A stretch of DNA of 37,012 bases from assembly GCA_903926465.1 (NCBI GenBank), contig CAIYJE010000172.1:1-37012 (forward strand). The letters are read 5' to 3'. Positions within the stretch are counted from its first letter, which is position 1. Every line of letters starts with the position of its first letter. Under the pieces are notes generated by a model. That model saw only the letters and a list, made by a program, of their open reading frames with translations. It was not told the DNA's origin and ran no database searches. This DNA is from an uncultured Planctomycetales bacterium. Its GTDB lineage: Bacteria; Planctomycetota; Planctomycetia; Isosphaerales; Isosphaeraceae. Of the stretch, positions 5,312 to 22,634 are shown in pieces. Both the position numbers and the translations under genes were made by a program.

Positions 5312-8224
5312 ATGACGGAATCTGTTGCACTCGGTCGACTTGAGTCGGCGCTCCAATCCCAGACTCGTGCCGAGCTTCGATTTGACGCTGGGCACCGGGG
5401 CCTGTATGCCACGGATGCCAGTCTGTACCAGATTATGCCGGCGGGGGTGGTGATCCCCCGATCGGCGTCCGAGTTACCGGTGATCGTCCGGCTGGCGGCC
5501 GAGCATGGCGTATCCATTGTCCCGCGTGGAGGTGCGACCAGCCTCACCGGCCAGACGGTGGGGCCTGGGCTGATTCTCGATTGTTCCAAGTACCTGCAGC
5601 GGATCGGAATTGTCGATCGGGACCGGATGACCGTGGATGTGGAACCCGGTGTGGTGCTGGATCGGCTCAATGCACAACTGACTCCGCTGGGCCTGATGTT
5701 CGCGCCTGATGTGTCAACCAGTGACCGGGCGACGATAGGCGGGATGATTGGCAACAACTCCGCGGGAGCCAGGTCGCTGCGGTATGGAAAAACGGTCGAC
5801 CACGTGGCCTCGCTCGATGTGGTACTTGATGATGGGACGCCGTTGAAACTCGAAGGGCTGGATGACACGGCGTTTGCAAATCTCTGCGCGGGCACGGGGC
5901 GTGCTGCCGAACTCCATCGAACCGTCAGCCGAATTGTCGGTGAGCATGAGTCGGAGATCCGAGCACGGTTCCCGCGCATCTTGCGCAGGGTGAGCGGTTA
6001 CAACCTGGACGAGCTGGTGCCAGGGTTGGCCGTTCGACCGCTGGGCTGGCCGGCCGAGCCCTGGCAATTCAATCTCGCGCGGTTGATTGTGGGCTCAGAA
6101 GGAACCCTGGCGGTGGTGCGGGGTGCTCGCTTGCGGCTGGTGAAACGGCCGGCGTTCCAGGGTTTGGTCGTGCTCTCGTTTAGCTCAATTCCGGCCGCCT
6201 TGGAGCGGCTGCAAGATATTCTAGAAACCGGGCCGATCTCGGTAGAGATGCTGGATCGGACCATTTTGGATCTGGCGGCGGCGCAGCCTGGAATGGCATC
6301 GGCGTTAGACTTCACGGCCGGTCGTCCGGAAGCGGTTCTGGCCGCCCAGTTTTATGCAGAGACAGAGTCGGAACTTCGGGACCGAACCGAGGATTTGGCT
6401 GCCCGGTTTGAAGGGCACCCTGGGGTACTCGGGGTGCGCAAACGTGGGGCCGATGCCGCCCGTGACTCGTTCTGGAAGGTTCGCAAGGCGGGGCTTTCGT
6501 TGCTGATGGGGTTGGTGGGAGATGCCAAGCCGGTGGCGTTTGTGGAAGATACGGCCGTGGCGCCGGAACGGTTGCCGGCGTTTTATGAGCGATTCCTGCA
6601 GATTGTGGAGCGGCATGGTGCCCGTGCCGCCTGCTATGGCCATGCCGATGTGGGATGTTTGCACATCCGGCCGATTCTTGATGTAAAGACCGACCACGGG
6701 CGCCGGCAACTGGAAGGCATTGCGGCAGAGGTGGCCGGGTTGGTGGCCGAGTTCGAGGGTGCCATGAGCGGCGAGCATGGCGACGGCCTGGCGCGTAGCC
6801 GCTGGAACCGGCCGTTGTTTGGCGAATCGGTGTACCAGGCATTCCAGCAGGTCAAGGCGGCGTTTGATCCCCACAATCGCCTGAATCCCGGCAAGGTGGT
6901 TGCTGAGCCTGCCCTCACCGATCACCTGCGGCTTGGGCCGGCTTATCACAGCATTGACCCGGAATCGACGGCTCTGGATTTTTCGGCCCAGGGCGGTTTC
7001 AGCCGCGCCATCGAGATGTGCTCAGGTGTTGGAGCATGTCGCAAGGTGGGTACGGGAACCATGTGCCCCAGCTACATGGTTACGCTGGATGAGGAGCACA
7101 GCACGCGTGGGCGGGCCAACCTGCTCAGGCTGGCCATTTCCGGCCAGCTTCCAGACGGGCTGGCCGATGCTTCGCTTCATGAGGCGCTGGACCTGTGCCT
7201 GGGGTGCAAGGCCTGCAAGACCGAATGCCCATCCAATGTGGATATGGCCAACCTGAAAGCGGAGACATTGCATCAGCTTCATTTGTCTCAGGGGGTGCCG
7301 CTGACCGATCTGGCCTTTGGGCATGTTTACCGCTGGTTGCCGCTGGCGTCGGCCGTGGCACCGCTGGCGAATGCGGCCTCGCGGGTTCGGCCGCTACGCT
7401 GGCTAATGGAGAAGGCAACAGGTATCGACCGGCGTCGAGGCTTGCCAGTCTTCGCGCCCACCTCATTTCGTCGCTGGTTCAGAAAACACACGCCGGCAGG
7501 TGGTGCGGGTCGGCTTGGTGAAGTCATTCTGCTGGATGACTGCTTCACCAATGTGAATGCGCCGGCCGCCGGCCAGGCGGCGGTTCGAGTGCTAGAGGCC
7601 GCTGGTTATCGGGTGCGGCTGGCAGGGTTGGACTGTTGCGGCCGGCCGGCAATTTCCAAGGGATTGCTAGACGTGGCCCGTTCACTGGCAGGGGCAAACG
7701 TTCGTGCTCTGGCTCCGCACGCTGCGCGCGGGGTTCCGATTCTGGGAATCGAGCCAAGCTGCATCACCACGTTTGTGGATGAATATCATGATTTTCGGCT
7801 GGGCGAAGACGCCAGGGTGGTGGCTTCTGCCTGCGGGCTGGTAGATGACTTCGTGGCCGATCCTGCACGTGTGCCGGACCTTCCGCTCAGGCCGCTAGAC
7901 CGGCAGATTCTGGTGCATGGGCACTGTCAGCAGAAGGCGGTTTTGGGTACGGCCGGTACAGAGGCTGCACTCAGGCGAATTCCTGGTGCCCAGGTTCAAA
8001 TGCTGGATTCCGGCTGTTGTGGGATGGCCGGTTCGTTCGGCTATGAGGTCAGCCATCGGGAGGTCAGCGAAGCGCTGGCAAATCGCGTACTTCTGCCTGC
8101 GCTCCGTAACAACCCAGATGCTTTGCTGGCCGCGCCCGGGTTTTCTTGCCGGAGCCAGGTCCACGACCTGGCCGGTGCCCGAGCCCAACACCCGATCGAG
8201 ATTATTGCCGGGCAGTTGAGCTAA
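5312..8224 (+). CDS. FAD-binding and (Fe-S)-binding oxidoreductase (D-lactate/glycolate/2-hydroxyacid dehydrogenase type)
   Basis: A 970-residue fusion of a VAO-type FAD oxidase (GlcD/D-lactate dehydrogenase-like) with a ferredoxin/CCG electron-transfer part (GlpC/LutA-like). It probably oxidises a D-2-hydroxyacid and hands electrons to a membrane acceptor. The N-terminal FAD-binding motif P-R-G-G-A-T-S-L-T-G-Q is at 71-81 and the G-N-N-S-A-G-A segment near 147-153. The C-terminal substrate domain ends with G-E-H-G-D-G and N-P-G-K-V. Two iron-sulfur cysteine sets follow: C570, C576, C585 and C629, C632, C635, C639 (C-L-G-C-K-A-C-K-T-E-C-P). Two C-C-G motifs sit at about 775 and 902. The single-chain layout resembles YdiJ/Dld2-type enzymes. 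The exact substrate is not decidable. Start ATG 5312 follows GAGAG. Confidence 0.93.
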   Translation: MTESVALGRLESALQSQTRAELRFDAGHRGLYATDASLYQIMPAGVVIPRSASELPVIVRLAAEHGVSIVPRGGATSLTGQTVGPGLILDCSKYLQRIGIVDRDRMTVDVEPGVVLDRLNAQLTPLGLMFAPDVSTSDRATIGGMIGNNSAGARSLRYGKTVDHVASLDVVLDDGTPLKLEGLDDTAFANLCAGTGRAAELHRTVSRIVGEHESEIRARFPRILRRVSGYNLDELVPGLAVRPLGWPAEPWQFNLARLIVGSEGTLAVVRGARLRLVKRPAFQGLVVLSFSSIPAALERLQDILETGPISVEMLDRTILDLAAAQPGMASALDFTAGRPEAVLAAQFYAETESELRDRTEDLAARFEGHPGVLGVRKRGADAARDSFWKVRKAGLSLLMGLVGDAKPVAFVEDTAVAPERLPAFYERFLQIVERHGARAACYGHADVGCLHIRPILDVKTDHGRRQLEGIAAEVAGLVAEFEGAMSGEHGDGLARSRWNRPLFGESVYQAFQQVKAAFDPHNRLNPGKVVAEPALTDHLRLGPAYHSIDPESTALDFSAQGGFSRAIEMCSGVGACRKVGTGTMCPSYMVTLDEEHSTRGRANLLRLAISGQLPDGLADASLHEALDLCLGCKACKTECPSNVDMANLKAETLHQLHLSQGVPLTDLAFGHVYRWLPLASAVAPLANAASRVRPLRWLMEKATGIDRRRGLPVFAPTSFRRWFRKHTPAGGAGRLGEVILLDDCFTNVNAPAAGQAAVRVLEAAGYRVRLAGLDCCGRPAISKGLLDVARSLAGANVRALAPHAARGVPILGIEPSCITTFVDEYHDFRLGEDARVVASACGLVDDFVADPARVPDLPLRPLDRQILVHGHCQQKAVLGTAGTEAALRRIPGAQVQMLDSGCCGMAGSFGYEVSHREVSEALANRVLLPALRNNPDALLAAPGFSCRSQVHDLAGARAQHPIEIIAGQLS

Positions 8225-11927: not shown

Positions 11928-13349
11928 ATGCAAATCTCGAGGCTCCGAAGCATCCATCTGAGGAGAGTCGGGAGAGGTTTGGGCCTCTGGGTGGCCGGCG
12001 TGGTGGCGTGTTGTACTCCAGACCTGCTTCATGCGGGTTTGAATGATCGCAAATCAGCCGCGGTTCAGGCCATCCAGAAGGTGCAGCCCAGTGTCGTTAG
12101 TATTTCGAGCGAAAAGCGTTCGGCTTCGTCGAGCCGCTGGCCCTTCTCCGCGGAAGAAACTCAGCGCCCTCGTGTGAGTGGAATGGGGACCGGGGTGATT
12201 ATCGATCACCGAGGCTTCATCCTCACCAACCACCACGTGGTGGACAAGGTTCAAGGAATTGAAGTCCAGCTCTCAGACGGCTCGGTTTTCCCGGCCCGTC
12301 TGATTCAGCAAGACCCGAATCTCGACATCGCCATCGTCAAGATTGATGCCGGTCGAATCTTGGTACCTGTGCGAATAGGTACCAGTGCCGACCTGATGGT
12401 GGGTGAGTCTGTCATCACCATTGGAAACGCCTTTGGCTACGAGAACACAACCTCGGTAGGCATCATCAGCGCTTTGGGTCGCAACGTGACTCTTTCTGAC
12501 GACCAAGTTTACCGCAACCTCATCCAGACCGATGCGTGCATTAATCCCGGCAATTCGGGTGGCCCGCTGGTCAACATTGAGGGTGAGCTAATCGGTATTA
12601 ACGTGGCGGTGCGAGCCGGAGCCCAGGGGATTGGATTTGCCCTGCCGATTGACGAGGTGAAGCGGGTTTCCACCGAGATGATGAGCACACGACGCCTGTC
12701 GGCAACCTGGCATGGGCTGGTCAGTTCCGAGGCGGTGGGCGAGGCTGGCCGTCATGTGGTGGTAACAGATGTGCCCACCGGCAGCCCGGCTGAACTCTCA
12801 GGGGTCCGTACAGGCGATAAAATCGTCAAAGTTAACCGGCTTGAGGTTGTGACTCCGCTCGACGTGGAGCGTGGATTGCTGGATGTCCGGGCTGGCCAGA
12901 AGGCAGAGGTTGTGGTTCATCGCGATAGCGAGTTGAAAACCCTGGAGCTGGAGCCCAAGCCGATCAGCCAGGCGTCACTGGCTTCAGCTGGAGCCTTGGA
13001 ACCGGCCAATGATCAGATCTTGAAGCGGCTGGGGCTGAAGGTTGTGGCTGTGCCGCGTGATTACGTGAAGGTTGTCTCGGCAAGCTTCCGTGGCGGACTG
13101 TTTGTGCAGGCCGTTCTGCCCGGTAGCCCGGCAGCCAGGGCCTCGATCCAGAAGGGGGATATTCTGGTCGGGATGAACGCGGCGAATCGCGACTGGGAAA
13201 CGATTCGCCCTGACAACGTGGTTTTCATCTTGAACCAGCCAGACGTTTCTCAGGGGCAAGCGATCCAGTTTTACCTGGTTCGTCGCAACGAGTTTGTGCA
13301 AGGGCAACTCACGCTTGGTGATTCGGCAACCGCAAATCTCAGGCGTTAA
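11928..13349 (+). CDS. HtrA/Deg-family S1C serine protease with two PDZ domains
   Basis: Exported trypsin-like protease/chaperone for damaged envelope proteins, 473 residues from ATG 11928. The N-terminus is basic then hydrophobic (L-G-L-W-V-A-G-V-V-A-C-C), a signal peptide or anchor. The catalytic triad is complete: H103 (T-N-H-H-V-V), D133 (N-L-D-I-A) and S210 (N-P-G-N-S-G-G-P-L). The first PDZ lies at about 285-345 (T-G-S-P-A-E-L-S-G-V-R-T-G-D) and the second at about 385-460 (L-P-G-S-P-A-A-R-A). The second PDZ is divergent (I-Q-K-G-D-I-L-V-G). Upstream in-frame ATGs at 11796 and 11868 would add a tail without signal character. The gene stands alone between a divergent TPR gene and the glycerate kinase run. 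Confidence 0.93.
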   Translation: MQISRLRSIHLRRVGRGLGLWVAGVVACCTPDLLHAGLNDRKSAAVQAIQKVQPSVVSISSEKRSASSSRWPFSAEETQRPRVSGMGTGVIIDHRGFILTNHHVVDKVQGIEVQLSDGSVFPARLIQQDPNLDIAIVKIDAGRILVPVRIGTSADLMVGESVITIGNAFGYENTTSVGIISALGRNVTLSDDQVYRNLIQTDACINPGNSGGPLVNIEGELIGINVAVRAGAQGIGFALPIDEVKRVSTEMMSTRRLSATWHGLVSSEAVGEAGRHVVVTDVPTGSPAELSGVRTGDKIVKVNRLEVVTPLDVERGLLDVRAGQKAEVVVHRDSELKTLELEPKPISQASLASAGALEPANDQILKRLGLKVVAVPRDYVKVVSASFRGGLFVQAVLPGSPAARASIQKGDILVGMNAANRDWETIRPDNVVFILNQPDVSQGQAIQFYLVRRNEFVQGQLTLGDSATANLRR

Positions 13350-13404: not shown

Positions 13405-13473
13405 GGATGGTGGGTCTGGGCTCTGGGTAAACTAAAGTTTGAGTTCCACCCTTCCAGCCGTGCTGGTGCTTTG

Positions 13474-14631
13474 ATGCACATCGTGATTGCCCCAGACAAG
13501 TTCAAAGGTAGCCTGACAGCCCCAGAGGCCGCGTCCGCGATTCAGCGCGGGGTGCGGTTGGCATGCCCTGAAGCTACGATCGACCTGGCTCCCATGGCCG
13601 ACGGTGGTGAGGGAACGGTAGACGCCCTGGTGATTGCCACCGGCGGTTCTTACCAATCCGTCCGGGTCCGTGGCCCACTTGGTGGCCCTGTTGAAGCACA
13701 GTTCGGATTGCTAGGCGACGGTCGCACCGCGGTCATGGAGATGGCTTCCGCATCTGGATTGGCCCTGTTACCTGCCGGGGAGCGAGATCCCTTCCAGACC
13801 ACGACTCGCGGAACAGGCGAGTTACTGCGGGCAATCCTGGATCTTGGCGTACGGCACGTTGTGGTTGGAATTGGCGGCAGTGCCACCAATGAAGGGGGCG
13901 CAGGGTTTGCTCAGGCGCTTGGATATCGCCTGCTCGATGCAGGTGGGGCCGAACTTTTGCCAGGTGGCGGGGCCCTGGATCAATTAGTAGAGATTGACGC
14001 TTCTCAGTGTGATGCACGGCTAGGCGCCCTGACGATTGATGTCGCCTGCGATGTGGATAACCCACTTTGCGGAACGCGGGGGGCCACGGCCGTGTTTGGC
14101 CCGCAGAAATTTGCGCTGGGCCGGCTACCCACGGCGGAGGATCTGGCCAAGTTGGATGCGAATTTGGGGCATCTGGCTCGGATCATCGAGCGTGACCTGG
14201 GGCCGAAGGTCGCGGAACTTCCAGGCGCCGGTGCTGCGGGTGGGCTGGGTGCCGGGCTGGTTGCATTTGCGGGCGGTCGGCTTCGACCGGGAATTGAGAT
14301 CGTGATTGAGGCGGTCGGCCTTCAGAACCGACTTCGGGGTGCCGACCTTTGCATCACCGGTGAGGGAGCCCTCGACGGTTCGTCGGCTGGTGGTAAGACC
14401 CCCGTGGGGGTGGCCCGGCATTGCCGATTGGCTGGGGTCCCCTGCCTTGCCCTTGCCGGCAAAATTGGAGATGGAGCCGCAGCGCTGGAAGGCCAGGGAA
14501 TTGATGCCTACTTCTCGATCTGTCCGGGGCCAATCTCCTTGGACGCGGCCATTGACCAAGCTGGGCCGTTGCTCTCGGCAACCGCAGAGCAAGCCGTTCG
14601 GTTGTTTATGGCCGCGCGGAGACAATCATGA
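13474..14631 (+). CDS. Glycerate kinase (type I, GarK/GlxK family)
   Basis: Phosphorylates D-glycerate with ATP, to 2-phosphoglycerate in GarK/GlxK-type members, feeding lower glycolysis. The 385-residue product matches the family (about 380). It starts with I-V-I-A-P-D-K-F-K-G-S-L-T-A (residues 3-16) and M-A-D-G-G-E-G-T follows. The central G-I-G-G-S-A-T-N-E-G-G-A-G and late I-T-G-E-G-A-L-D motifs are present. An open frame reaches back to 13384, but ATG 13474 gives the canonical N-terminus, with no strong ribosome site in front. Its stop overlaps the thiL start by four bases (ATGA at 14628), so expression of the two is coupled. Glycerate could come from the FAD/Fe-S oxidase route (glycolate or tartronate) elsewhere in the window, but this is only inference. 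Confidence 0.93.
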   Translation: MHIVIAPDKFKGSLTAPEAASAIQRGVRLACPEATIDLAPMADGGEGTVDALVIATGGSYQSVRVRGPLGGPVEAQFGLLGDGRTAVMEMASASGLALLPAGERDPFQTTTRGTGELLRAILDLGVRHVVVGIGGSATNEGGAGFAQALGYRLLDAGGAELLPGGGALDQLVEIDASQCDARLGALTIDVACDVDNPLCGTRGATAVFGPQKFALGRLPTAEDLAKLDANLGHLARIIERDLGPKVAELPGAGAAGGLGAGLVAFAGGRLRPGIEIVIEAVGLQNRLRGADLCITGEGALDGSSAGGKTPVGVARHCRLAGVPCLALAGKIGDGAAALEGQGIDAYFSICPGPISLDAAIDQAGPLLSATAEQAVRLFMAARRQS

Positions 14632-15635
14632 GCCGGCCCCAGGATGCAACCCCGCAAGACACGGGTGAATTTGGGCTGATTGCCTGGATTCGCGAACAGG
14701 CCGAGCCAGGGGCCCGGCAATCAAAGCATGTTGCGTTTGGGATTGGCGACGACTGTGCTGGGCTCCGGTTCACGCCGGGGCGTGAGGTGCTGGTGACAAC
14801 CGATATGCTGATGGACGGTCGCCATTTTCTGACCAGTGTGCACACGCTGGAGCAGATCGGGCGGAAGGCGATGGGGGTGAATATCTCAGATATTGCCGCC
14901 ATGGCCGGCGTACCGGTGGCAGCCGTAGTTTCCGTGGCCCTGCCACGGTTTCTCGGCAAGCGAACGGCCATGGAGCTGGCGCGCGGGCTGGAGCGGGGTC
15001 TGGATGCGGTGGCTGCGGATTATGGGGTGGCTCTGGTAGGGGGCGATACCAACGCTTGGGACGGTCCGCTGGTGATCAGCGTGACGGTTCTGGGTGAGAC
15101 TACGGAACGGGGCCCAGTACGTCGGTCTGGGGCAAAGCCGGGCGATGTCATTTTTGTCACGGGTCGGCTGGGTGGCAGCCTGGATTCTGGACGGCACCTT
15201 GAGCCGCGCCCTCGCATTCTTGAGGCTCAACAACTTCATCAGCGTGTCCCACTCCGGTCCATGATTGATCTCTCTGATGGGCTGGCTGGAGACCTGGGTC
15301 ACATCCTTGAGGAAAGTGGCGGCCTGGGTGCCGTTTTGGAAGCCGGTGCGGTGCCTGTGCATAACGATGCCGTGCGCATGGCCCGAACAAGCGGGCGGAC
15401 GCCGCTCGACCATGCGCTTCATGACGGTGAGGATTTTGAACTCTGTTTCACGGTGGCTCAAGACGATGCGATCAGGCTTCAGGCTCAACCTCCCGCCGGC
15501 GTCACACTCTACCGGGTTGGAACGATCAAGGCTGAACCTGGTCTGAGGATCAGGCACGAGGACGGTCGGATGAACGCGATCCCGACCAAAGGTTTTGATC
15601 ATCTTCGCGTGAGTGAACCGGGGGCCGAACTTTGA
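14628..15635 (+). CDS. thiL: Thiamine-monophosphate kinase
   Basis: Converts thiamine monophosphate to thiamine diphosphate using ATP, the last step of cofactor synthesis. The 335-residue product has the N-terminal G-E-F-G-L-I-A-W-I segment, the Mg/ATP-binding G-I-G-D-D-C-A (about 38-44), the T-T-D-M-L-M-D-G-R-H-F motif (about 57-67), M-G-V-N-I-S-D-I-A-A-M (82-92) and G-G-D-T-N (140-144). The later I-D-L-S-D-G-L-A and D-G-E-D-F-E-L motifs are also kept. It belongs to the AIRS/PurM-like fold. The start overlaps the glycerate kinase stop (ATGA) and the end overlaps tsaE (TTGA), a translationally coupled run. Confidence 0.95.
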   Translation: MSRPQDATPQDTGEFGLIAWIREQAEPGARQSKHVAFGIGDDCAGLRFTPGREVLVTTDMLMDGRHFLTSVHTLEQIGRKAMGVNISDIAAMAGVPVAAVVSVALPRFLGKRTAMELARGLERGLDAVAADYGVALVGGDTNAWDGPLVISVTVLGETTERGPVRRSGAKPGDVIFVTGRLGGSLDSGRHLEPRPRILEAQQLHQRVPLRSMIDLSDGLAGDLGHILEESGGLGAVLEAGAVPVHNDAVRMARTSGRTPLDHALHDGEDFELCFTVAQDDAIRLQAQPPAGVTLYRVGTIKAEPGLRIRHEDGRMNAIPTKGFDHLRVSEPGAEL

Positions 15636-16132
15636 AGCTGAACCTGAGGGCGGATAAGTTACTTCTTGATGTTCATGGGGAAGCGGAAACCGAGCAGCTT
15701 GGCAAGGCGATCTCCGAGGTTGCTCGGCCGGGTACGGTGATTGCGCTGGTGGGTACGCTTGGGGCCGGTAAGACCCGTTTGAGCCGGGCGATTGCCGAAT
15801 CGCTGGGGGTTGATCCGCTGGCCATTGCCAGCCCAACATTTGTCTTGATTCATGAATATCAGGGGCGAATACCGGTTTTTCACTTCGACACCTATCGGCT
15901 GGGCACGTCTGAAGAATTTGAAGCGTTGGGGGCGATTGACTACTTTGAAGCCGGTGGCGTTTGCCTGGTGGAATGGGCCGATCGCGTACCAGATATTGTG
16001 CCGCCTGATGCCTGGTGGGTACGCATCTCACTGGATGAGTTTGACCCGGCTTGCCGGCAGATCGAAGTGGAAGCCGGCCCGGCCATTCTTTCCGCACTTG
16101 CCCACCAGTTAGACGTGCAGCCCTTGAGATGA
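15632..16132 (+). CDS. tsaE: tRNA threonylcarbamoyladenosine biosynthesis ATPase TsaE
   Basis: ATPase that works with TsaB and TsaD in forming t6A37 on ANN-decoding tRNAs. The 166-residue protein has the Walker A motif G-T-L-G-A-G-K-T (41-48), S-P-T-F-V-L-I-H-E-Y (about 69-78), F-H-F-D-T-Y-R-L (Walker B-like region) and V-E-W-A-D-R near residue 112, all characteristic of TsaE. The start is a TTG at 15632 that overlaps the thiL TGA; no nearby ATG gives a full N-terminus. Its own TGA overlaps the ATG of the DNA methylase. thiL-tsaE proximity is common in bacteria. Confidence 0.95.
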   Translation: MKLNLRADKLLLDVHGEAETEQLGKAISEVARPGTVIALVGTLGAGKTRLSRAIAESLGVDPLAIASPTFVLIHEYQGRIPVFHFDTYRLGTSEEFEALGAIDYFEAGGVCLVEWADRVPDIVPPDAWWVRISLDEFDPACRQIEVEAGPAILSALAHQLDVQPLR

Positions 16133-17811
16133 ACGCACGAAAGACAAGACAAGACGAGACGAAAGCGAACGGGGTTCACTACACACCGGCAGACCTGGCC
16201 GCATTTCTTGCGGAAGTGACCCTGGCGGCTTCAAGAGATGTTCACGGGCCGGTTCGGGTGCTTGATCCAGCGTGTGGAGACGGTGGGTTACTGAAGGCCA
16301 TTGCAGCGGCCGTGCCGGATTCTGTCCGTTCGCGCATGATCTTTGAGGGGTTTGATACTTCGCCCGAGGCCATCGTGATTGCCGAATCAAATCTTACCGG
16401 TTTGGGCCGGGTGATTCTGCACCGGCAAGACTTTCTTGCTGAGGAAAACTTGTTCCCAGGCACCCAATCCGTTTCGCTCAACGCAGAGCCCACGGGTGTA
16501 AAGTATGATCTGATTATTGCCAACCCGCCCTACGTTCGAACCCAGATCCTGGGGGCAAACCGGGCCAAGGCGCTGGCTCGTCGATTTGGCCTGACTGGCC
16601 GAGTTGACCTTTATCAGGCGTTCGCTCGTGCCATGGTTGGGGTGCTCAAGCCGGGTGGCGTGCTTGGCATGCTGACCTCAAATCGGTTCCTGACCATCAA
16701 GTCTGGGGCATCGCTGCGTGACCTGTTCACCACCGACTTTGACCTCGAAGCCATTTACGATCTGGGTGATACCAAACTCTTTCTTGCCGCGGTGCTGCCT
16801 GTCATTCTTGTGGGCAGGAAGGGCCACCACGCAAATCATCCGTGTGCGTTTCACCGTGTTTATGCGACGCGACATGGAATGATCCATTCCCAGGTCAGGC
16901 GAGATTCGATTCTGCAGGCGCTCCGAGATGAGTTGATGGGAGTGGTGGAAACTCCTGCGGGGTCGTTTTGCATCGAGCGGGGCACACTCAGGGTAGATCC
17001 GCACGATCACTCCTGGTCACTGGCAACCAAGGAATCTTGTGACTGGTTGAATACGATTCGCCGGCACCAGTCTAGAACCTTTGGCGAACTCGGAAAAATT
17101 CGCGTAGGACTCAAAACGACCGCCGATAAGGTTTTCATTCGAACTGCGTGGGAGAGCCTGCCGGACCAACTTCGTCCAGAGCGGGCGTTGATTCACCCGT
17201 TGCTCACCCACCACGTGGCGCAGCGATGGCAGGCCGATCCGCCCCAAAAATTTGTGCTGTACCCCCATGAAGCTCTGGAGGGCAAGCGATATCCGATCGA
17301 CCTGGCTAGGTACCCGAAAGCAGCCGCCTATCTTGAGGCTCATCGAGATCGGTTGTCGGCCCGCCCGTACGTGCGTGACAGTGCTCGACACTGGTATGAG
17401 ATCTGGGTGCCACACAATCCCGACGACTGGAATAAGCCCAAGATTGCTTACCCCGATATTTCAGAACACCCGCGTTTTTGCTTCGATGATACGGGGATGA
17501 TGGTCAACGGAGATTGCTACTGGATCACGCTGAATGAAGGCGTGGATCCAGACTGGCTGTTGCTGATGCTGGCCGTGGCCAATTCAACGTTCATCACCAA
17601 ATTTTATGATGTGATGTTTCACAATAAGTTGTATGCGGGGCGCCGGCGGTTCATGACGCAGTATGTGGAGAAATTCCCGCTGCCTGACCTGGCCCGATGC
17701 CCGGCAATCGTTCAGGCGGTGAAGCAACTTCTGGAAAATGGTCTGTCGACCTGGGCCGAACAGCAATTGAACCGCCAGGTCTGGGAATCGTTCGGTCTTC
17801 GCGAAGAGTAA
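16129..17811 (+). CDS. Eco57I/TaqI-like class I N6-adenine DNA methyltransferase
   Basis: Predicted to transfer methyl from SAM to adenine N6 in a specific DNA sequence. The 560-residue product has the G-V-H-Y-T-P entry motif (15-20), SAM motif I D-P-A-C-G-D-G (46-52), an acidic F-D-T-S motif II, and the catalytic motif IV N-P-P-Y (132-135). The last ~250 residues resemble the TaqI-type C-terminal specificity domain with many aromatic and charged positions (Y-E-I-W-V-P-H-N). No restriction nuclease motif or partner gene is seen, so it may be an orphan or a bifunctional type IIG enzyme with an unrecognised nuclease part. ATG 16129 overlaps the tsaE stop (ATGA). An earlier open frame to 16051 merely re-reads tsaE. 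The recognition site is unknown. Confidence 0.88.
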   Translation: MNARKTRQDETKANGVHYTPADLAAFLAEVTLAASRDVHGPVRVLDPACGDGGLLKAIAAAVPDSVRSRMIFEGFDTSPEAIVIAESNLTGLGRVILHRQDFLAEENLFPGTQSVSLNAEPTGVKYDLIIANPPYVRTQILGANRAKALARRFGLTGRVDLYQAFARAMVGVLKPGGVLGMLTSNRFLTIKSGASLRDLFTTDFDLEAIYDLGDTKLFLAAVLPVILVGRKGHHANHPCAFHRVYATRHGMIHSQVRRDSILQALRDELMGVVETPAGSFCIERGTLRVDPHDHSWSLATKESCDWLNTIRRHQSRTFGELGKIRVGLKTTADKVFIRTAWESLPDQLRPERALIHPLLTHHVAQRWQADPPQKFVLYPHEALEGKRYPIDLARYPKAAAYLEAHRDRLSARPYVRDSARHWYEIWVPHNPDDWNKPKIAYPDISEHPRFCFDDTGMMVNGDCYWITLNEGVDPDWLLLMLAVANSTFITKFYDVMFHNKLYAGRRRFMTQYVEKFPLPDLARCPAIVQAVKQLLENGLSTWAEQQLNRQVWESFGLREE

Positions 17812-17986
17812 GCTTGACGGGCCTGATGACCGGTAGATTGCAGCGGTACCCATCTGTGTTCTACGCAAGCTGACCAAGCGATGGAGCGGAACTACAAGCC
17901 TCAAAGCGCAACTTCAAAGTGCGTGAGCGAGTGGATCTGCTCTCGGCCTCGCTTCGTTCAGGCCGTTATAGACGTCATTGGAGCCG

Positions 17987-18016
17987 CATTGGGGTCATGA
18001 GTTCATGGCCCCAATG
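17987..18016. repeat. Inverted repeat between convergent genes
   Basis: Two 14-base arms (17987-18000 and 18003-18016) are complementary apart from one T-G wobble, separated by only two bases. The repeat covers the last codons and stop of the transaldolase. It lies downstream of both the methylase and the transaldolase and could end transcripts from either side, but neither side has a T run. Confidence 0.45.
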
Positions 18017-18852
18017 GCTTGCGGTAATTCTGATGGTCGAGCGTTCTCGGAAATGGCCGGTTGATTCGGGAGCGTCTCGGGATAGAACTGAGAGTTGAGC
18101 TTCGAGAGTGTGCTTGCGTTGGTGAAGCCAACTGGGTCGAGCTGGAAGCCGGCCGCAACGGCATCGCCGCGGAACATTCTCACCGTCTCCAGAGAGTATT
18201 CATCAAGGTCTTTATTGATCAGGTCGAGTTTTCGGATCAGGTCGTACGTAACCGTGATGATATGGCAGCCAACCTGATTCGCCTGCACGATATTGAGAAG
18301 TTCTCGCGGGCTTGCCCAGATCAGTTCGAGCTGGGGGTACATGGCCAGTTGGTTCACGCTGGCCGCGATCAACGGGAGGGGATCTCGTCCTGTGTCGGCA
18401 ACTCGGCCCGCGAACACCGAGACGTAGCTAGACGGGCCGTCGGCAAGCGCCTCGGAGACTTCACGGACCTGTTCCAGAGTCATCAAGGCCGTCACGTTTT
18501 GCTTGACCTTGGCTCTTGCCAGAGCACGGATCAGCGGCAGGGACGACTGGCCTTCCGTGTTCGTGACGGGAATCTTCACATAGACGTTCTCTCCCCACGA
18601 TGCGATCTGATGGGCTTGCGCTTCCATCTCATCGAACGAGTCAGAGAAAACCTCCAGCGAGATGGGACGGTCGGCGATTACCAGGAGAAGATCTCGTGCG
18701 AAAGCTTCATAGTTGGTAACGCCGGCCAAGCGCATCAAGGTAGGATTGGTCGTGAAGCCGACAATCCTGGGGTCTTGATACAGGTCGAGCATTCTGGCGC
18801 GGTCGGCACCATCGGCGAAAATCTTGACTTTCAGGTTCGTTGTTTTACTCAT
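17995..18852 (-). CDS. Transaldolase-family protein
   Basis: Class I aldolase-fold enzyme expected to move a dihydroxyacetone unit between fructose 6-phosphate and erythrose 4-phosphate, giving sedoheptulose 7-phosphate and glyceraldehyde 3-phosphate. The 285-residue product has F-A-D-G-A-D (12-17), G-F-T-T-N-P-T-L-M (32-40), the Schiff-base Lys in V-Y-V-K-I-P-V-T-N (K93) and S-V-F-A-G-R-V-A-D-T-G (about 144-154). GAAAGG sits upstream of ATG 18850-18852. It is the last gene of the five-gene heptose operon, 18 bases after gmhB, and could supply sedoheptulose 7-phosphate to the SIS isomerase (inference from context). No transketolase is in the window. Confidence 0.92.
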   Translation of the reverse strand: MSKTTNLKVKIFADGADRARMLDLYQDPRIVGFTTNPTLMRLAGVTNYEAFARDLLLVIADRPISLEVFSDSFDEMEAQAHQIASWGENVYVKIPVTNTEGQSSLPLIRALARAKVKQNVTALMTLEQVREVSEALADGPSSYVSVFAGRVADTGRDPLPLIAASVNQLAMYPQLELIWASPRELLNIVQANQVGCHIITVTYDLIRKLDLINKDLDEYSLETVRMFRGDAVAAGFQLDPVGFTNASTLSKLNSQFYPETLPNQPAISENARPSELPQAIGAMNS

Positions 18853-18870
18853 TGGTTGCCTTTCAGAGTT

Positions 18871-19446
18871 TTAAAGTTTGGTTTGTTGAAGGATCCAGGT
18901 TACGGCATCAGATAAACACGTAACGGTTTGAGTGGCGGGTGGTTCTGGCTTTTTTTCGTCATAGCCGCAGTCAATCCAGACGGTTCGGCAGTTCGCTCGC
19001 TGGCCGGCTTCGATGTCTCGCCACCGATCCCCGATCATGAAACTGGCAGTTAGATTGATCGAGTAAGCAACCGATGCCTCAAGTAAGAGGCCAGGGTTTG
19101 GTTTGCGCCGGGGGCAATCGTCACCATCGTCATAGCAGACCAGGATTTCATGGATCGGCAATTCGGAGAGCAGTTGGGCGTTCATGGCTTTGACCTGTTC
19201 CCGGGTCTGGGTGCCCCTGGCCACGTCGGGTTGATTGGTCGCTCCGATCAGAAGAAATCCCGCATCTCTCAGGCGACAGAGGGCCTCGAAAGTTCCCGGA
19301 ATGATTTCGAGTTCCTGGAGCGAGGCTGGTGGGTAAGGTTTCCCTACTCGAAGCACGGCGTGATTCAGCACACCGTCTCGATCGAGAAACACCGCCCGGT
19401 TTCCCAGATATGAGCTTGGTTTTGGGTTCAGCGGATCGACTCCCAT
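18871..19446 (-). CDS. gmhB: HAD-IIIA phosphatase, GmhB-like (heptose 1,7-bisphosphate 7-phosphatase)
   Basis: HAD-superfamily phosphatase of 191 residues. The nucleophile motif F-L-D-R-D-G-V-L-N (20-28, D22 and D24), T-N-Q (about 70-72), K-P-N-P-G and I-G-D-R-W-R-D-I-E-A-G (motif IV) are visible. In the operon it would remove the 7-phosphate of D-glycero-D-manno-heptose 1,7-bisphosphate. The zinc loop of E. coli GmhB (C-x-H then C-x-C) is only partly kept: the corresponding stretch is V-C-Y-D-D-G-D-D-C-P-R-R-K-P, with two cysteines and no His. The start ATG 19444-19446 lies inside the end of the gmhA-like gene (19-base overlap) after GAGGGAG. A histidinol-phosphatase-type role is possible but context favours heptose. 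Confidence 0.85.
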   Translation of the reverse strand: MGVDPLNPKPSSYLGNRAVFLDRDGVLNHAVLRVGKPYPPASLQELEIIPGTFEALCRLRDAGFLLIGATNQPDVARGTQTREQVKAMNAQLLSELPIHEILVCYDDGDDCPRRKPNPGLLLEASVAYSINLTASFMIGDRWRDIEAGQRANCRTVWIDCGYDEKKPEPPATQTVTCLSDAVTWILQQTKL

Positions 19447-20024
19447 TTTGTCTCCCTCGCTTTGAGTTTTGGGTGAGAGACCAGGAGGTGCCAGATGACT
19501 GCCTGAAATGCCTCGGTATGGGGAGTGATATGCGCGGCATTGACGGTGGGAACCACCACGCAGGCGGTGGCAACCTGGGCCGTGTACCCCCCGTCGTTTC
19601 CCACGATTCCGAGTATCGGAGTACCCACCTGCTTTGCGTACTGAACCGCCAGGACCAGATTGGTACTGACGTTCTTTTCAAGGTTTCCACCACCTACCGA
19701 AAGAACCAAGATCAGATCTTCTGGTCTCAGTCGGCTGATTTTTAGCCATTCGACGAATACGGATGCCCAGCCCTCGTCGTTGGTTCTGGCGGTTAGCTCC
19801 GAGATATTATCTGTTGGGGCATAGGCTTCGATCCCGGTGATTTTGCGGAAGTCATTGACTGCATGAGAGGCGTTGCCCGCGCTGCCTCCCACTCCAAGGA
19901 TGAAAAGTCGCCCATTCCGTTCACGGGTTTCGGCCAGGAGAATGGCCATTTGTTCGATAGCTGCAATGTCCAGGGCTTCAATCACTTGCCGGGCTTCCGA
20001 CAAGAACTGGATGGCGTGCGTCAC
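19428..20024 (-). CDS. gmhA: SIS-domain sugar-phosphate isomerase, GmhA-like
   Basis: Predicted to turn sedoheptulose 7-phosphate into D-glycero-D-manno-heptose 7-phosphate. The 198-residue SIS-domain protein has G-V-G-G-S-A-G-N-A-S-H (43-53) and a second phosphate-binding S-V-G-G-G-N segment (near 109-114), followed by N-D-G-G-Y (about 143-147). The C-terminus carries the H-T-E-A-F-Q-A-V-I-W-H helix. The motif after the first Ser differs from E. coli GmhA (Asp where the catalytic Glu is expected: H-A-V-N-D-F), so the isomerase assignment rests partly on the neighbours. The start is a GTG at 20022-20024 overlapping the stop of the nucleotidyltransferase gene (GTGA). Confidence 0.8.
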   Translation of the reverse strand: MTHAIQFLSEARQVIEALDIAAIEQMAILLAETRERNGRLFILGVGGSAGNASHAVNDFRKITGIEAYAPTDNISELTARTNDEGWASVFVEWLKISRLRPEDLILVLSVGGGNLEKNVSTNLVLAVQYAKQVGTPILGIVGNDGGYTAQVATACVVVPTVNAAHITPHTEAFQAVIWHLLVSHPKLKARETKWESIR

Positions 20025-20758
20025 GATAGGACTTCCGATGATTGAATTCCGGTTACTGTGGAAAGCCGCCCTTGCGTTTCGTTAAGTCCATCAACCGAGC
20101 CGATTTCATAGAACCGCTCGTGGACTTCAAATCCCGCGAGGTCACCCTGCCTCAGCAGCTTTTGAAAGCTGGAGTGGAGATCGAAAGCGCCGGTCTCGGG
20201 AATCGTCTCGAATGTTTTACGATTCCAGATGCTGAGGCCATAGTCGATGTAGTGCATGGCGGGCGTGCGTGTGACCTTGTCGTAGGCAACAATAGAGCCA
20301 TTTTGGAACTCGACGTTGCTGGTATCCCAGCAGCCCTGATTCCGGAACACGGTCATGAGCGCGGGTTTGCCGGTCGTCTCGTAAGCCTGCTGGATAGATT
20401 GGTAGTCACACTCAAGATACGAATCGCCATACAGGACGAAAAAATCAGCGCTCAGCATTGGAAGCGCGTTCTTCAACGCGCCGGCCGTGCCCCGTAAGGA
20501 TGGGCCGTCGAAGGAATACTGGATGTCGATATCAAAACCTGGGCCGTTGCGAACCGTTTCAACCACGCGCTCGCCCAGGTATCCCAGACAAAGAACCACC
20601 GTGCTCACCCCCTGCCCTTGGAGTTGGCGGAGTTGATGGTAAATGAAGGGTTGGCCTGCGATCTCCAGCAAGCATTTGGGCGTTTCTCGAGTGAGTGGGC
20701 CCAGACGGGTTGCGAGCCCACCTGCAAGAATGGCCACAGGGAGCCGACTGGTGTTCAT
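20021..20758 (-). CDS. hddC: Sugar-phosphate nucleotidyltransferase, HddC-like
   Basis: Transfers a nucleotide to a sugar 1-phosphate; in this operon the expected product is GDP-heptose or another NDP-heptose. The 245-residue protein starts with V-A-I-L-A-G-G-L-A-T-R-L-G (8-20) and P-K-C-L-L-E-I-A-G-Q-P-F (27-38), the signature of the RmlA/GlmU-type family, and has the metal-binding G-D-S-Y-L (Y-G-D-S-Y-L-E-C-D) near 110. The base preference cannot be read from sequence. It starts with ATG overlapping the kinase stop (ATGA at 20755-20758). Confidence 0.85.
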   Translation of the reverse strand: MNTSRLPVAILAGGLATRLGPLTRETPKCLLEIAGQPFIYHQLRQLQGQGVSTVVLCLGYLGERVVETVRNGPGFDIDIQYSFDGPSLRGTAGALKNALPMLSADFFVLYGDSYLECDYQSIQQAYETTGKPALMTVFRNQGCWDTSNVEFQNGSIVAYDKVTRTPAMHYIDYGLSIWNRKTFETIPETGAFDLHSSFQKLLRQGDLAGFEVHERFYEIGSVDGLNETQGRLSTVTGIQSSEVLS

Positions 20759-21735
20759 TGCGAGACCACCTTGGTGCCTTCGAAATCAAATCGAAAGCGA
20801 ACTTCGTGTAAGCCTTGCTCGGACATCACCTGGCGAACGCGTGCGACATCGTGACAGAGAAACATCAAGAAACCGCCACCACCAGCGCCAATGAGTTTGC
20901 CGCCAAGGGCACCGTTCTTCATGCCGATGTCGTACCAGTGATTAATCTGATCATTACTGATTGATGTCGACCGTTTTCGTTTGTGCTCCCAGTGCTCATT
21001 CATCAACACGCCAAACTGCTGAAGGTTGCCTGCCTCCAACGCCACCTTGATTTCCTGGCCAAGTTGTTTGACGTCATGCATATTCTCCAGAATTGTCCGG
21101 TCGTTGTTCTTGCTACGATCGTCTTGGTCTTTGAGAATTGTACTCGCGGATCGTGTGTAGCCCGTGAAAAAGAGGAGTAAGTGATCCTCCATATCGTGCA
21201 TGGTTCGCGTGCTGACTTTCAGCGGTCTGACCTCGACGGGTCCCTTCGTCGGAAAGTTGAAACAGGTCATGCCGCCGTACGCGGCAATATACTGGTCTTG
21301 CTTGCCAACCGGTTCTTTCAAGATGTCGATCTCAAGCTGACAAGCTTGTTCGGCAAGTTCGGAAGTGGAGATCAGGTTTTTCAAGTGGAGATGAAGGGCC
21401 TTGAGCAATGCGGTAGAAAAGCTACCCGAGGATCCGAGACCAGTTCCGGCAGGAATATCGGCCGTACTGGTGATTTCTAACCGGTGATCCTGATAGCCGA
21501 GTAGTCGTAATGCCTCTCGAATCAACGGATGTTCGATCTCGTCGAGCTTTTCAACCTCTTCGAGCTTTGAATATTTCAGGAGAAACTTGGGAATAAAGCG
21601 ATCATTGATCTGAATGTAAACATACTTATCAATTGCCGCAGAGATCAGCGATCCACCATGTTCTTGGTAGTAAGAAGGGAGGTCGGTTCCACCACCGCCA
21701 AGAGAGATCCGCATCGGACTTCGTGTCATGATCAT
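20755..21735 (-). CDS. hddA: GHMP-family heptose 7-phosphate 1-kinase, HddA-like
   Basis: Predicted to phosphorylate D-glycero-D-manno-heptose 7-phosphate at C1. The GHMP motifs are visible: R-S-P-M-R-I-S-L-G-G-G-G-T-D-L-P (5-20), the ATP-loop P-A-G-T-G-L-G-S-S-G-S-F (about 96-107), and the C-terminal G-A-G-G-G-G-F-L-M-F. The predicted 326-residue length suits HddA (about 340). I chose ATG 21733-21735; the frame is open to 21837, but those 34 residues precede the conserved start and look unlike a GHMP N-terminus. No strong ribosome site is seen. Its base composition is lower in GC than most of the window (25 of 60 G/C at 21541-21600). Confidence 0.87.
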   Translation of the reverse strand: MIMTRSPMRISLGGGGTDLPSYYQEHGGSLISAAIDKYVYIQINDRFIPKFLLKYSKLEEVEKLDEIEHPLIREALRLLGYQDHRLEITSTADIPAGTGLGSSGSFSTALLKALHLHLKNLISTSELAEQACQLEIDILKEPVGKQDQYIAAYGGMTCFNFPTKGPVEVRPLKVSTRTMHDMEDHLLLFFTGYTRSASTILKDQDDRSKNNDRTILENMHDVKQLGQEIKVALEAGNLQQFGVLMNEHWEHKRKRSTSISNDQINHWYDIGMKNGALGGKLIGAGGGGFLMFLCHDVARVRQVMSEQGLHEVRFRFDFEGTKVVSQ

Positions 21736-22634
21736 AACGCTGGAGCTCACATGGTCGTCGTTGAATATCTGTAATGCATTCAGTGAGTCGTACGAAACGT
21801 AAGATGAGGTTCCTGCGAGACTATTTTCTACCAACAACGGCCTGATTCATGTCGCGAGATTGAATAGCGGCTGGCCAAGCCTTGGAGGACTTGTGCGGTG
21901 TCTCTTGGATGCGCGGTTTGCAGCGTCGGGTTTCTCAAGCGGTTGGTCAGCACCGAGCTTCAGAGGCTGAAGTGGCAGAGCGGTATTGGAAAGTCCATGG
22001 TTGACTTCAATGAAACACCGCTCGCCGTCTGTGGCCAAAGTCATGTTGCAATGATCAGACATGAAAGTACGCCTGTTTCATGGAAAGTTTGTCGGCAGGC
22101 CTACTTCGTTTCGATTGGCACCGCCGCTCTTGGGCAGACTGGTGTCAACCGATCAGACTCGGTTCCTTCCAAACTTGATTCATTATGCGCCAGACCGCAG
22201 TTTCTGGAGGAATTGTGGTCAAAACTGCATGGATTCGCAGAATCGTGAACCTGAGATGTCGAAAAAATGAATCAAAGTGACGAAAGCCTTGCGCAGAATG
22301 ATGGTTTGGAGCGACTTTAGCTGGTCTATACCGGTTGGATCGTGGTTTTGGTGAATCACGTAGATTTCGGTGCATTACTGCCCGTGAAGTGGCTCTCAAG
22401 CGTGGTGTATATTTATGTGCCAGCGTTGGTGCTGGTGTGAAAGGTTGGGAGAACGTTGATGTCTCCAGTTTTTGGTGACAGGGAACCGATGCCGGATCTC
22501 GCCAGGGTTTGGGGAACCGGCCGTCTTGGACTTGATGTTCAAGTCAAGGAAAGAATTCGTGAGACGTTTTAACAATGCTTCGGCCTTGCTCGTGTAAAGT
22601 TTTAAGGCCAGGCGTTCTCTATAACGAGTGAACT
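21736..22634. other. Gene-poor spacer between the divergent heptose and glycan operons
   Basis: Nearly 900 bases hold no convincing gene. The short open frames that exist (for example 21898-22248 on + and 22145-22399 on -) lack ribosome sites and protein-like composition. Parts are AT-richer than the flanks (25 of 60 G/C at 22261-22320). Promoters for the kinase operon (leftward) and the GT2 operon (rightward) should lie here. I could not place a sigma-70 pair with confidence. A small RNA or a decayed gene is possible. Confidence 0.5.

Follow-up and report, generated by a model that had tools for sequence, protein, structure and literature searches.

The gene at positions 16129 to 17811 (+) of the window, by which we mean the whole 37,012-nucleotide stretch of planctomycete DNA analysed here, quite probably represents the modification half of an ATCGAT-directed restriction system of the ClaI/BseCI type whose restriction gene has been lost, leaving an enzyme that would now only mark the chromosome. 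The window is an entire contig (C172) of a 6.89-Mb genome assembled in 207 contigs, with a completeness of 99.66% and a contamination of 2.95%. The gene belongs to a patchily distributed family of restriction methylases, its nearest relative is part of a complete system, and its locus is the only one of 30 tsaE loci examined in which such a gene follows tsaE. The picture is that of a one-time restriction methylase turned chromosomal single gene. Orphan Type II methylases are a known kind, to which the window gene would add one more.

A methylase of the M.BseCI family and its predicted target

The open reading frame runs from an ATG to a TAA and encodes a Type II N6-adenine DNA methylase of 560 amino acids, with the start codon supported by the alignment of the closest homologue, which begins at residue 1. 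The original prediction of an Eco57I/TaqI-like N6-adenine methylase is borne out by Pfam matches to Eco57I (1.2e-18), N6_Mtase (2.2e-11) and TaqI_C (1.3e-7), and the PADLOC model PDLC03226 matches residues 10-555 with 554 bits. The sequence DPACGDG at residues 46-52 (16264 to 16284, +), which aligns with BseCI, and NPPY at residues 132-135 (16522 to 16533, +), whose N132, P133, P134 and Y135 are all invariant in the alignment, are the AdoMet-binding motif I and the catalytic motif IV. The C-terminal target-recognition region extends over residues ~385-520 (17281 to 17688, +), as placed by the alignment and by the Pfam TaqI_C match at residues 414-518.

A sequence search of the PDB matches M.BseCI over residues 9-546 of the 560 (E=3.7e-122). 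For comparison at the level of fold, an AlphaFold model was built from an alignment of 13 sequences, window methylase included (pLDDT 77.0, pTM 0.74). With this model the top five Foldseek matches are all M.BseCI entries, three of them DNA complexes (TM 0.82, E ~1e-53), followed by CamA and then M.TaqI. Because a two-domain methylase of the M.BseCI kind accounts for the whole protein in both sequence and fold, the hidden nuclease domain for which a structure check had been proposed is ruled out. Identity as a BREX PglX protein or a Type IIG enzyme is ruled out by the length of 560 residues and by low scores, since the BREX PglX models among the NCBIfam matches listed, four in number with profile lengths of 1185-1404, reach 18.5-46.8 bits against cut-offs of 400-900.

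Since sequence and fold match M.BseCI across nearly the full length, the predicted target is ATCGAT, which is the target of M.BseCI according to the accessible part of PMC5502580. The enzyme would bind this palindrome and transfer a methyl group from AdoMet to adenine N6 on each strand, and the chromosome would be methylated at ATCGAT. A homologue on the megaplasmid of Shewanella oneidensis MR-1 adjoins a restriction gene, and the accessible part of PMC12838424 describes regular methylation of MR-1 DNA at ATCGAT, while a title in its reference list concerns improved transformation of MR-1 by removal of a ClaI site. We infer that the megaplasmid homologue makes the ATCGAT mark of MR-1.

The window methylase retains every one of the 68 alignment columns that are invariant in 16 non-solitary relatives, including the catalytic NPPY and the AdoMet motif, which suggests that the enzyme probably remains active and continues to place its mark. 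These 16 relatives include M.BseCI, itself the partner of a nuclease, and leave out the distant homologue L095. The solitary proteins L030, L031, L084, L094 and L065 differ at 1, 1, 2, 7 and 1 of the 68 columns. One of these columns, position 162 in window numbering, is Tyr in all 16 non-solitary relatives and A, S or L in solitary L031, L084 and L094; the window methylase retains Y, and the distant, nuclease-paired L095 is also without Tyr.

Position at the end of a glyK-thiL-tsaE run

The methylase closes an overlapping run on the + strand that begins with the glycerate kinase gene glyK (13471 to 14631; TIGR00045, 455.9 bits against a cut-off of 168.45) and continues with thiL, encoding a thiamine-monophosphate kinase of 335 residues (14628 to 15635; TIGR01379, 253.9 bits, cut-off 184.15), and tsaE, encoding the tRNA t6A ATPase of 166 residues (15632 to 16132; TIGR00150, 106.6 bits, cut-off 60.1). 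As had been predicted, the methylase starts inside the tsaE stop codon: the sequence ATGA at 16129 to 16132 (+) contains both the methylase ATG and the tsaE TGA. The description of the genes as "fused by translation" is too strong for a mere 4-nt overlap, which is repeated upstream at the glyK/thiL (ATGA) and thiL/tsaE (TTGA) junctions. The arrangement is operon-like rather than a protein fusion. The overlap suggests co-expression with tsaE, and the methylase would be read at the end of the run, presumably from a shared transcript.

Downstream, a gap of 183 bp (17812 to 17994) lies where most relatives carry a convergent restriction gene, and an opposite-strand transaldolase gene lies beyond it. 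The transaldolase (TIGR02134) belongs to a tightly packed run at 17995 to 21837 (-). The genes that come next in it, identified by eye, would encode a HAD phosphatase, a SIS isomerase, a nucleotidyltransferase and, last, a GHMP kinase, a combination reminiscent of nucleotide-heptose sugar genes.

The gene tsaE is present in 56 of 59 genomes, and 30 of these loci were examined. In the 29 other than the window, glyK and thiL are upstream in 22, thiL alone in 2, and neither within the available flank in 5; the methylase follows tsaE in none of them. The tandem with t6A and thiamine genes, originally regarded as unusual, is thus unique among the 30 loci in the addition of the methylase but otherwise usual, and the proposed comparison of synteny in relatives recovers a common glyK-thiL-tsaE run but no second case of a methylase beside tsaE. 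In the two relatives that possess a methylase of this family the genes are apart, on different contigs in one (G014) and at 6.03 Mb (methylase) versus 0.44 Mb (tsaE) in the other (G039). We favour a single-site insertion over a functional link to t6A or thiamine as the reading of this tandem. An artefact of binning is unlikely, given the overlap of the methylase with tsaE and a glyK-thiL-tsaE run typical of the bacterial family.

Downstream of tsaE in 13 of the 29 other loci (L046, for example) is a gene for a conserved protein of ~440 residues with a P-loop recognised by eye; a search of the window's genome, run with no positive control, gave no match to it. Across methylase loci with enough flank, and by a crude open-frame rule, the upstream gene points the same way as the methylase in 5 of 7 solitary cases and in 35 of 57 paired ones, too small a contrast to count as a difference.

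The absent nuclease and the distribution of solitary copies

An alignment-based scan of named genomes gave 433 stretches related to the methylase, of which the best 80 were surveyed as loci. A nuclease stands beside the methylase in 72 of these best 80 and is absent in 8. The paired relatives have a restriction gene (319-360 residues in the main type, labelled REase_II, a Type II restriction enzyme, by PADLOC) and a small HTH gene adjoining the methylase. Of the 72 nuclease genes, 67 are downstream and on the opposite strand, 4 are downstream but on the strand of the methylase, and 1 is upstream. One of the eight solitary loci, L161, offers just 583 bases of upstream sequence; in its genome (G014) no match to the nuclease is better than E 0.66.

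No nuclease gene was recognised beside the methylase in the window from open reading frames, Pfam or tblastn. Searches by tblastn with 16 restriction and 4 HTH proteins, at E values up to 10, gave no convincing nuclease remnant in the window, the 183-bp gap included, among the best 60 matches listed. The weak matches in solitary loci (best E 0.005 in L084 at 12108 to 12323, and E 0.018 in the window at 6640 to 6858) were rejected as chance, being stretches of 20-34% identity that in the window lie 9 kb from the methylase. A first search of the window's genome alone, run with no control, was empty. With controls in place, the main nuclease type was again not found in the window's genome, and the five solitary genomes searched gave nothing beyond E 0.66; the same search detected it in all nine control genomes, seven at E <1e-90 and two, which carry a variant nuclease, at ~1e-8. 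For two nuclease variants, with positive controls in 3/3 and 2/2 genomes, the five solitary genomes were negative as well; the best non-control matches there were E 0.048 (G014), 0.088 (G566) and 0.26 (G039), with none in the window's genome. At the solitary loci L160, L171, L174, L177 and L183 the nuclease search covered the flanks. The view of the methylase as solitary, with no nuclease adjacent, was thus upheld and extended from the neighbourhood to the genome: for three family nuclease types the cognate restriction gene was found neither adjacent nor elsewhere in the assembly.

In five of the 72 paired loci (L201, L216, L221, L234 and L238) the methylase frame is open but the nuclease match next to it is broken across two reading frames, which could reflect either ongoing decay of the nuclease or an error in sequencing. 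The window's genome also contains more distant adenine-methylase-like frames (L002, L003, L005, L004; C115:10787-11797, C178:1270-2559, C93:3462-3776), and one such frame, of 1125 residues, is in the Type IIG size range; this genome may hold further restriction-type genes.

Among 58 relatives, a set with no second genome of the window's genus, the methylase family is found in 2 (G014 and G039). At E 1e-40 it occurs in 9 of the 397 class genomes searched and in 9 of 392 from the phylum, the window's own genome counted in each. At E 0.001 there is some match in 33 of 59 genomes, own included, mostly to other methylases. The family is therefore not present in most related species, unlike a conserved regulatory orphan of the Dam/CcrM kind. 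Its nearest relative, G275 (= L082), is 60% identical and sits in a complete restriction system, and the two group together with a support of 100/99 in a tree of 23 rows. Since the usual partner is an adjacent nuclease and the nearest relative has a complete system, the most fitting view of the solitary state is that it arose secondarily, by nuclease loss; we infer this loss from the tree, no remnant having been seen. The claim of a resident methylase rather than a mobile restriction system holds only in part: the gene looks like a single chromosomal one, but its restriction-methylase family is patchy, its nearest relative has a complete system, and it is alone among the 30 tsaE loci examined.

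On the 23-row tree the solitary label requires 5 changes, at least 3 of them forced, and 233 of 500 shuffles are as low, so the label is no more clustered than by shuffling. A tree of 82 rows, made by a quick method with SH-aLRT support only, gives 7 changes, of which starred branches force 6 or more, with 14 of 500 shuffles as low; 8 of its 9 solitary rows fall within one group of 25 rows, of which 16 are planctomycete, the window counted. Support is weak for the precise placement of several solitary rows. Taken together, the trees indicate several switches between the solitary and the paired state, somewhat clustered in the 82-row set. Among the best 80 of the 433 loci, solitary copies make up 7 of the 22 from named planctomycetes and 1 of the 58 others (Fisher p=0.00035), a contrast that ignores kinship and bears on loci chosen as those most similar to the window.

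Two solitary methylases from planctomycete MAGs, at L171 (1621 to 9157) and L174 (1815 to 8468), are 56% identical and have four flanking genes in common, encoding a GCV_H-like protein, an Fe-S protein, an unnamed protein and a radical SAM protein that is 90% identical; the solitary copy was therefore probably inherited in place in this line. In L177 (2248 to 4398) the solitary frame begins ~33 bases after rbfA, and other solitary copies neighbour ispE (by eye) and a GTPase gene in Pan216 (Planctomycetes bacterium Pan216, a complete genome with its copy at L176), an Fe-S protein gene before L171 and a DUF1501 gene before L160. Near the Pan216 copy, positions 44 to 974 of L031 consist of short DNA units repeated in tandem, with several open frames on each strand. 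Complete systems of the family occur in many phyla among the best 80 of 433 loci, and a nuclease accompanies the homologue in 4 of the 5 plasmid records whose match reaches 35% identity or more and covers 97% or more of the query (a partial match, H20, was left out). A phage origin was rejected: 19 phage records match, none with a single place over 80% of the query.

Possible roles of the mark and comparison with known systems

Loss of the nuclease first would be the safe order of decay, because a methylase lost first leaves the chromosome open to cutting. Whether the surviving mark is put to use is a separate matter, and gene regulation, protection and mere persistence are each compatible with an origin by nuclease loss. 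We lean slightly, and tentatively, towards a function for the host in gene regulation: the domesticated enzyme would leave partial ATCGAT methylation upstream of genes and so control expression, as do Dam, CcrM and CamA. The intact methylase, the recurrence of solitary copies in Planctomycetota and the L171/L174 pair with its retained flanks are consistent with such a role. A candidate precedent for regulation by an orphan ATCGAT methylase comes from Nocardia, where the accessible part of PMC4752239 reports unmethylated ATCGAT sites enriched in regulatory regions. Against regulation stand the poor conservation of the family, uncharacteristic of regulatory orphans, and the region near dnaA, where 2 ATCGAT sites in 12 kb form no cluster. 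The frequency of the site is uninformative as a footprint of avoidance or excess. Its observed/expected ratio of 0.61 in the window's genome (364 kb sampled) falls within the 0.38-0.81 of relatives that lack the family (G013 0.38, G028 0.81, G025 0.63), and the solitary-copy genomes G014 and G039 give 0.84 and 0.74 and the complete-system genome G275 0.79 (68-133 kb sampled of each relative).

It is possible, if doubtful, that the gene is a neutral relic in which the nuclease was lost recently and a useless methylase has yet to decay. The repeated changes of the solitary label on the 82-row tree are as expected from repeated decay, and the split-frame nucleases could be examples of it; the window, however, holds no nuclease remnant that could be found, its methylase keeps all the invariant columns, and the L171/L174 pair, though of another lineage, has been retained over a long split. 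Marginally more doubtful is a role as an anti-restriction shield, in which the methylase is kept as protection from ATCGAT-cutting systems of plasmids and neighbours. Complete systems are indeed widespread and are carried by plasmids, but what the cell would gain hinges on how far it meets such cutters, which cannot be read from sequence. That restriction still operates, through an unrelated or unassembled nuclease elsewhere that cuts ATCGAT, is very improbable: an assembly in 207 contigs may hide such a gene and the genome contains other methylase frames, yet searches backed by controls gave no hit for the three family nuclease types, in a genome of almost full completeness.

More broadly, we would offer only as a speculation that in Planctomycetota, time and again, ATCGAT restriction methylases have become stable host genes, free of a nuclease and placed beside housekeeping genes (after tsaE in the window, after rbfA in L177 and beside ispE in Pan216), with the mark used for gene control. 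The open-access literature, as far as it could be consulted, holds almost nothing on Planctomycetota methylomes or orphan methylases, and print may hold more. In Halobacteria, patchy restriction systems exist alongside conserved orphan methylases, according to the accessible part of PMC6471742. The window gene provides a sharp, testable case of nuclease loss, with a predicted target, a known nearest complete relative and an independent solitary pair with common flanks. Should the mark prove to be used by the cell, control by DNA methylation could be studied in Planctomycetota; if it is not used, the decay of a restriction system is documented.

Among known systems, M.BseCI (PDB 7qw5-7qw8) is closest in structure, sharing length, domain order, catalytic motifs and target-recognition region with the window methylase at 39% identity and a fold TM of 0.82. 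M.BseCI is known as the methylase of a restriction system, whereas no nuclease was found for the window enzyme by the searches described. Complete ATCGAT-type systems have methylases of the same family, at 60% identity in G275 and 40-41% on the MR-1 megaplasmid (L063), but carry beside them the restriction gene and small HTH gene that the window has neither of. CamA of Clostridioides difficile, a solitary adenine methylase with a different target and conserved in its species, has a related fold (TM ~0.7) at 16-18% identity, and differs from the window methylase in that the latter is patchy. The Nocardiaceae orphan family, for which the accessible part of PMC4752239 lists no nuclease, has the ATCGAT target that is predicted for the window gene; it comes from another phylum, and has demonstrated activity and unmethylated regulatory sites.
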